From a virus: a stretch of 38,061 nt of DNA. The DNA lies in IMG/VR virus record IMGVR_UViG_3300035704_000014, positions 1 to 38,061 of that record; one strand, written 5' to 3'. Below the pieces are notes generated by a model. The model saw only the letters and a list, made by a program, of their open reading frames with translations, made no database searches and was not told the DNA's origin. Shown here in pieces: positions 36,487 through 37,242 of the stretch (within the stretch, counting starts at the first letter, position 1; each line of letters begins with the position of its first letter). A program made the position numbers and the translations under genes.

Positions 36487-37242
36487 ATGAAGCGACGAAC
36501 CCTCGCCGCCAGCGCAGCAGTGGCCCTGACCGCTGGCACCCTGGCTACCGCCGTAGTCACCAGCAGCCCCGCATCGGCCACAACCGACGAGTGCATGAAC
36601 ACCCCGCAGCCGGTATCCGGCCCGGTCGGCTGCGGCACCCTCTACCTCCCGCACACCGGCTACCCGCACGCCGGCAACGCAATGGCCCTCACCGCGTCAC
36701 ACGACCAGTTCATGGCCCCCGTCAAAGCCGAGCCACTCGGTGCCAGCGGTATGCAGGACTGGATGACATACCAGGTGTGCACCCGGATCACCGCAGACCG
36801 GGGACCCAGCCTCCCGTGCGGCAGCGGCGGGCAGCTCGTACCCGGCCGCGTCGTGCTCAGGCTCGCACCCGATGGCGAGCAGCAGGACGTGAACAGCCAG
36901 CGGTCGCTTTGCCTCGACGACAACCACCAGCACGTCCAGCTGGGCAACTGCCAGGGGTACCGCACGCTGTTCACCGAAGGGTTCCCCGGCAACGGCCTCA
37001 GCGACGGCACCCCGCCGGTCGTCGAGAACCCGATCGCCGCTGAGACCTGGACCGTGGCCAGGAACGTCGACGGCGTGTCCCTGCGCAACATCTACACCGG
37101 CTGGTACCTCGATGACAACGCCGGCGGCGGCCCGGGTACCGAGCTGATCACCTGGTCGTGGAACGGCAGCAACGACCAGAAGTGGCGGTTCGCCGGGTGC
37201 ACCGCTGGCGCGGGAACCCAGGTCAACGCCTACTGTTACTAA
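36487..37242 (+). CDS. Secreted ricin-B-like lectin
   Basis: 251 aa from ATG 36487, GAGAGAGGAACC leader; the frame is open upstream but without a site. Residues 1-36 are a Sec signal: KRR, hydrophobic AASAAVALTAGTLATAVV, cleavage after ASA. The mature part has 8 Cys (four likely disulfides) and ricin-type beta-trefoil features: SLCLDDNHQHVQLGNCQGY, TGWYLDD, and the sugar-fold motif NDQKWRF (QxW-like). It should be exported by the infected or lysogenic host. This is not a structural protein; a lysogenic-conversion or surface-modifying role is inferred. It has its own promoter and lies alone on the plus strand among minus-strand genes. Confidence 0.8.
   Translation: MKRRTLAASAAVALTAGTLATAVVTSSPASATTDECMNTPQPVSGPVGCGTLYLPHTGYPHAGNAMALTASHDQFMAPVKAEPLGASGMQDWMTYQVCTRITADRGPSLPCGSGGQLVPGRVVLRLAPDGEQQDVNSQRSLCLDDNHQHVQLGNCQGYRTLFTEGFPGNGLSDGTPPVVENPIAAETWTVARNVDGVSLRNIYTGWYLDDNAGGGPGTELITWSWNGSNDQKWRFAGCTAGAGTQVNAYCY

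Follow-up and report, generated by a model that had tools for sequence, protein, structure and literature searches.

We describe a phage protein, predicted to be exported, that carries a ricin-B-type repeat, and we tentatively propose that this disulfide-stabilised, lectin-like protein is made from its own promoter during infection and masks a glycan receptor on the host surface. The gene lies in the window, that is, the complete 38,061-base virus record analysed here, which comes from a soil bacterial virus and carries plus-strand structural genes (terminase, portal, capsid, tape measure and GH25 endolysin) followed by small genes on the minus strand. The window appears to be part of the genome of an actinobacterial siphophage, and the host is probably actinobacterial. 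Neither its terminase nor its capsid has a match at 60% identity or more among 50,697 annotated phages, the nearest capsid there being that of Gordonia phage Kiko (47%). Two longer relatives, contigs G004 (57.7 kb) and G005 (82.8 kb), were found via capsid-based relatives followed by a whole-record search; the window shares with them capsids that are 82% identical and the order of its genes. Judging from G005, whose replication and recombination genes include DnaB, RecT and YqaJ-type functions, the window probably represents roughly half of a genome of some 80 kb. Its early region also encodes a UPF0102 (YraN-like nuclease fold) protein (31773–32246, minus strand), and a DUF2637 membrane protein (33152–34267, minus strand) is kept in all three phages and has no match in annotated phages. 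A tRNA-Sec call by ARAGORN (11692–11782, minus strand), inside the plus-strand gene 9814–11850, is probably a false positive, and a library of anti-phage defence functions yielded no match.

The lectin gene (36487–37242, plus strand; 251 codons before the stop codon at 37240–37242) occupies exactly the position given in the preliminary description, behind a good ribosome-binding site, GAGAGAGGA (36472–36480, plus strand). That description had also presented it as the lone plus-strand gene of its region and its product as something other than a virion part. The first view holds, the gene being embedded in a minus-strand early block in the window and in both relatives, and the second is supported by its position outside the structural gene block. 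Conservation, one of the checks then proposed, was examined in the two related phages, where copies 49–51% identical sit at the same position and in the same orientation, each again the only plus-strand gene in a minus-strand block, with all eight cysteines invariant. Identity among the three lectins is thus similar, at about 50%, to that among the endolysins (49%). The open reading frame is coding by comparative evidence, since of the six frames it alone is open in all three phages. The gene is old, as its copies in the relatives show, and its base composition, with GC content and codon use as in the phage genes, marks it as a resident phage gene. A divergent small gene of 94 codons without an assigned family (36039–36320, minus strand) adjoins the lectin gene; a 70% identical copy stands beside the lectin gene of G004 and none beside that of G005. 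In G004, the lectin gene is directly followed by a small frame on the plus strand that encodes a hydrophobic stretch (L098 3076–3324); this frame is absent from the window and G005, where matching DNA begins only at its end. G004 further encodes a second predicted exported protein of 285 amino acids (L096 223–1080; MRKLGFYGACAVIAATF...ANA).

Beyond these three phages, no relative of the lectin was detected. Of 33 related viral contigs searched as whole records, G004 and G005 alone yielded homologues. Among the remaining 31 records, many are short or belong to more distant phages, and the gene may therefore be confined to this subgroup. Scanning viral contigs and genomes with the single lectin sequence gave no relatives, a profile scan of viral contigs gave nothing beyond the G004 and G005 copies, and a profile scan of genome contigs from a species-genome collection gave none. 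A degenerate DNA pattern for PVSGxVGCGT recovered the same two copies, the remaining matches being chance hits without similarity, in scans that are not exhaustive and can miss relatives. No lectin homologue was found in the 50,697 annotated phage records or in plasmids, the latter giving weak partial matches only, chiefly to RICIN repeats.

The protein is predicted to be exported. Its first 31 residues (36487–36579, plus strand) resemble a signal peptide, with MKRR followed by a hydrophobic core and a cleavage site, predicted by eye, between ASA and TT; judged in the same way and by hydropathy, each of the three copies has a comparable N-terminus. The preliminary description had named a Sec signal, of which the signal-peptide-like N-terminus stands, the export route being either Sec or Tat. 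The mature protein (36580–37239, plus strand; 220 amino acids, 23.5 kDa) contains no hydrophobic stretch. Its eight cysteines, counted correctly from the outset, fall at residues 36, 49, 98, 111, 142, 155, 238 and 250, that is, in four local pairs whose members are 12–13 residues apart. There is no cysteine at the cleavage site that would indicate a lipobox and no wall anchor was seen, so the protein may diffuse away from the cell.

Several ricin-B-like motifs had been reported in this protein; one repeat proves to be well above chance, whereas the other two are suggestive only. The window protein matches PF14200 with E = 4.9e-5 (24.4 bits, against a cut-off of 25.6) and PF00652 with E = 0.0025, in each case through residues 186–236 only, and the G004 copy scores above the PF14200 cut-off (34.1 bits); overall, the ricin-B models match within residues 186–237. 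The repeat itself, of gamma type (residues 197–237; 37075–37197, plus strand), has invariant D209, N226, Q231 and W233, the Q231-x-W233 motif being kept together with an aromatic residue at 223 (Trp or Tyr in the three phages), and is without the canonical repeat disulfide. Against the PDB, a profile built from the three sequences finds ThreeFoil (3.6e-8) and actinohivin (1.5e-6), always through residues 197–237, and the beta and gamma parts alone find them at 2.1e-9 and 5e-8, respectively, with a weak contiguous match across two successive repeats of ricin-type B chains (E 0.012). A Streptomyces plasmid RICIN protein aligns with the C-terminal repeat over 45 residues at 42% identity (5.9e-6). 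The repeat is nearest to those of actinohivin, ThreeFoil and xylan-binding trefoils and retains the pocket Asp, the invariant D209 aligning with the actinohivin residue that holds O3/O4 of mannose (PMC3498932). As far as sequence can establish, the placement of residues 197–237 in the ricin-B/actinohivin repeat type is secure, and the whole is probably an exported, disulfide-rich, sugar-binding phage protein.

The remainder of the protein is more divergent. Weaker QxW-like sites (QDW at 90–92 and ETW at 186–188) are suggestive of a degenerate three-repeat protein, and residues 142–155 form a ricin-like element, C142-LDDN..VQLGNC-155. The N-terminal two-thirds have no detectable relative and internal repeat and profile comparison gave no significant symmetry, which leaves room for a fold different from a simple trefoil. 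Structure prediction, also proposed earlier as a check, produced no confident model: AlphaFold2, run twice on the three sequences, reached a pLDDT of 29.5 both times. In view of the two weak QxW-like sites, the non-significant internal comparison and this pLDDT, we term the protein lectin-like and not a proven trefoil. With actinohivin and R-type trefoil lectins (PF14200/PF00652) it shares a C-terminal repeat with the pocket Asp, the conserved aromatic, the Asn and QxW; unlike them, it has one recognisable repeat out of three, eight cysteines and a unique N-terminal region, is encoded by a phage and, compared with the 118 amino acids of actinohivin, is about twice as long.

Upstream of the gene, a predicted extended -10 promoter, TGCTACGAT (36396–36404, plus strand), is kept as TGNTANNAT in the three phages, with one plus-strand copy per record, 69–82 nt ahead of the lectin start, and differs from the common early promoter, CCCACATGTGGGTGGTAYACT. 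The gene had been credited with its own regulated promoter. A promoter of its own is supported by this unique conserved element. Regulation is not established by the leader dyad, which is strong in the window only: the inverted repeat or hairpin in the 5' leader (36411–36464, plus strand; 18-nt arms) has a z of -4.6 in the window, versus -0.07 and -1.2 in the relatives. This dyad was considered as a general regulator of the lectin promoter and rejected, the relatives' dyads not being strong. A repeat search also found a palindrome, TACCGCACACATGTGTGCAGTA (36331–36352), which is a copy of the repeated early promoter/operator CCCACATGTGGGTGGTAYACT and reads into the divergent minus-strand gene, away from the lectin. 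G005 has about nine similar copies of this repeated element, which in the form CCYACATGTGGGTGGTAYACT consists of a palindromic core with a -10 box directly after it.

Downstream of the lectin, all three phages carry a structured, covarying non-coding RNA of about 142 nt (window 37335–37478, plus strand; L092 18166–18307; L098 3396–3537), a candidate new structured RNA. Two almost invariant blocks flank helices with compensatory changes, among them a UNCG-capped hairpin. Both sides are changed in 10 of 38 pairs, a result equalled by 0 of 500 shuffles, with slid controls reaching at most 2, in a test on three sequences from which the structure itself was derived; single-sequence folding energies were no better than those of shuffles. 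A covariance model search found the RNA only in the three lectin-bearing phages, and an Rfam search gave nothing near any family's curated threshold. The invariant blocks (window 37335–37455) match E. coli 16S rRNA at 423–433 (11 of 11) and 441–455 (13 of 15), with the order kept and 7 nt between them, a joint match that 1 of 4,000 shuffles gave by chance; this likeness was noticed post hoc. That this RNA might belong to an RNA-based prophage origin of the sort seen in parABS mycobacteriophages (PMC7157519) was considered and not adopted, no ParA having been found. Further along, a perfect 15-bp hairpin that has no U-run in the window (37495–37529), found by repeat search, probably terminates transcription in both directions where the convergent units meet.

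The activity was initially thought to be undescribed for phages. What stands is that no comparable small, exported, lectin-like protein was found in the 50,697 phage records and that literature keyword searches turned up no account of such an exported lectin encoded by a phage; what needs narrowing is novelty in the wider sense, a PF14200 toxin of Paenibacillus larvae phages (PMC3764407) and receptor inactivation by T5 Llp (PMC9586334) being known. Toxin 1 of the temperate P. larvae phage phiIBB_Pl23 (gp26) is likewise a phage-encoded protein with PF14200 domains, and differs in being a multidomain protein of 975 amino acids, compared with 251 here and no recognised enzyme domain (PMC3764407). 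One cellular RICIN query against phages returned only the toxins of P. larvae phages and two fragments of gut phages that carry no annotation, and phage-encoded ricin-type domains appear rare.

Under the proposed masking function, the protein would cross the membrane and fold as one beta-trefoil whose single working sugar site would be the C-terminal repeat. Its ligand may be a glycan of the host envelope, for example a glycopolymer of the cell wall or a surface protein that is O-mannosylated, and binding would block re-adsorption of progeny and competitors to infected cells and debris. Such an action would resemble receptor masking by T5 Llp, through sugar binding, and by this analogy we infer a role in superinfection exclusion. 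Llp is an early-expressed exported phage protein that inactivates or masks its receptor, and proteins of this receptor-inactivating kind keep phages from adsorbing unproductively to cells already infected and to the fragments left by lysis (PMC9586334). The lectin shares with Llp and the Streptococcus thermophilus Ltp lipoproteins a small size, predicted export and phage origin, with masking proposed here and demonstrated for Llp (PMC9586334); unlike them, it has no recognised sequence relation to either, no lipobox and, presumably, a sugar as target instead of a protein. Infection of Streptomyces by phiC31 needs Pmt/Ppm1 mannosylation, which suggests a glycoprotein receptor (PMC5882110), so sugars matter for the entry of at least one actinobacterial phage.

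Expression from a lysogen, as envisaged in the preliminary description, is unsupported because no tyrosine integrase (PF00589), serine recombinase (PF00239) or ParA-type partition ATPase (PF13614) was found in the window or its two larger relatives, in records that may be incomplete and with a repressor search that was not exhaustive. Their absence fits a role during lytic infection. It also bears on the rather unlikely reading of the gene as a moron-type fitness or lysogenic-conversion gene, whose exported lectin would aid the host during long phage carriage, perhaps in a pseudolysogenic state or with the prophage kept extrachromosomally, by promoting adhesion or competition or by binding polysaccharides of plants, fungi or soil. 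As in morons, the gene has an apparent promoter of its own, unlike the early promoter, stands on the opposite strand and ends in the 3' hairpin at 37495–37529; ricin-type domains occur in actinobacterial proteins too, and temperate P. larvae phages carry a ricin-type toxin (PMC3764407). Against this stand the lack of the temperate-phage functions named above, on which lysogenic conversion would depend, the lack of any toxin or enzyme domain, and composition and codon use that are phage-like and not foreign in a gene carried by all three phages with coverage of the region, close relatives included, which points to a resident and not a recently or sporadically acquired gene.

We consider it unlikely that the protein is an exported effector of another fold, for example one that inhibits a receptor protein or an enzyme of the host envelope, with only a short ricin-like segment at its C terminus. 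The restriction of relatives to about 40 of the 220 mature residues, the unique N-terminal part and the low AlphaFold2 confidence would agree with such an effector, whereas QDW 90–92, ETW 186–188 and the 142–155 element resemble degenerate trefoil repeats in the right order, and the two-repeat match to ricin-type B chains, weak as it is, argues in the same direction. Less probable still is an infection or lysis helper that binds wall or extracellular polysaccharide and assists the endolysin, holin or progeny release. Its appeal lies in a protein that is by prediction exported and of sugar-binding type, in a phage whose GH25 endolysin matches fn3 only weakly and lacks a recognised wall-binding domain. 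Genes for lysis proteins are normally clustered, however, and the lectin gene lies about 9 kb from the lysis genes, in the early block and under its own promoter.

The known cases of receptor masking by phages concern protein receptors, in Gram-negative hosts. If masking by the lectin is true, it would represent a glycan-directed form of superinfection exclusion. More speculatively, and improbably as a full combination, a lytic actinobacterial lineage may coat glycan receptors with a secreted protein while the cassette RNA acts together with this protein or regulates it. An exported phage lectin would offer a simple means of masking a glycan receptor and could itself serve as a probe for identifying that glycan. 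With its covarying RNA, found in lectin-bearing phages alone, the cassette is a concrete new object for testing.
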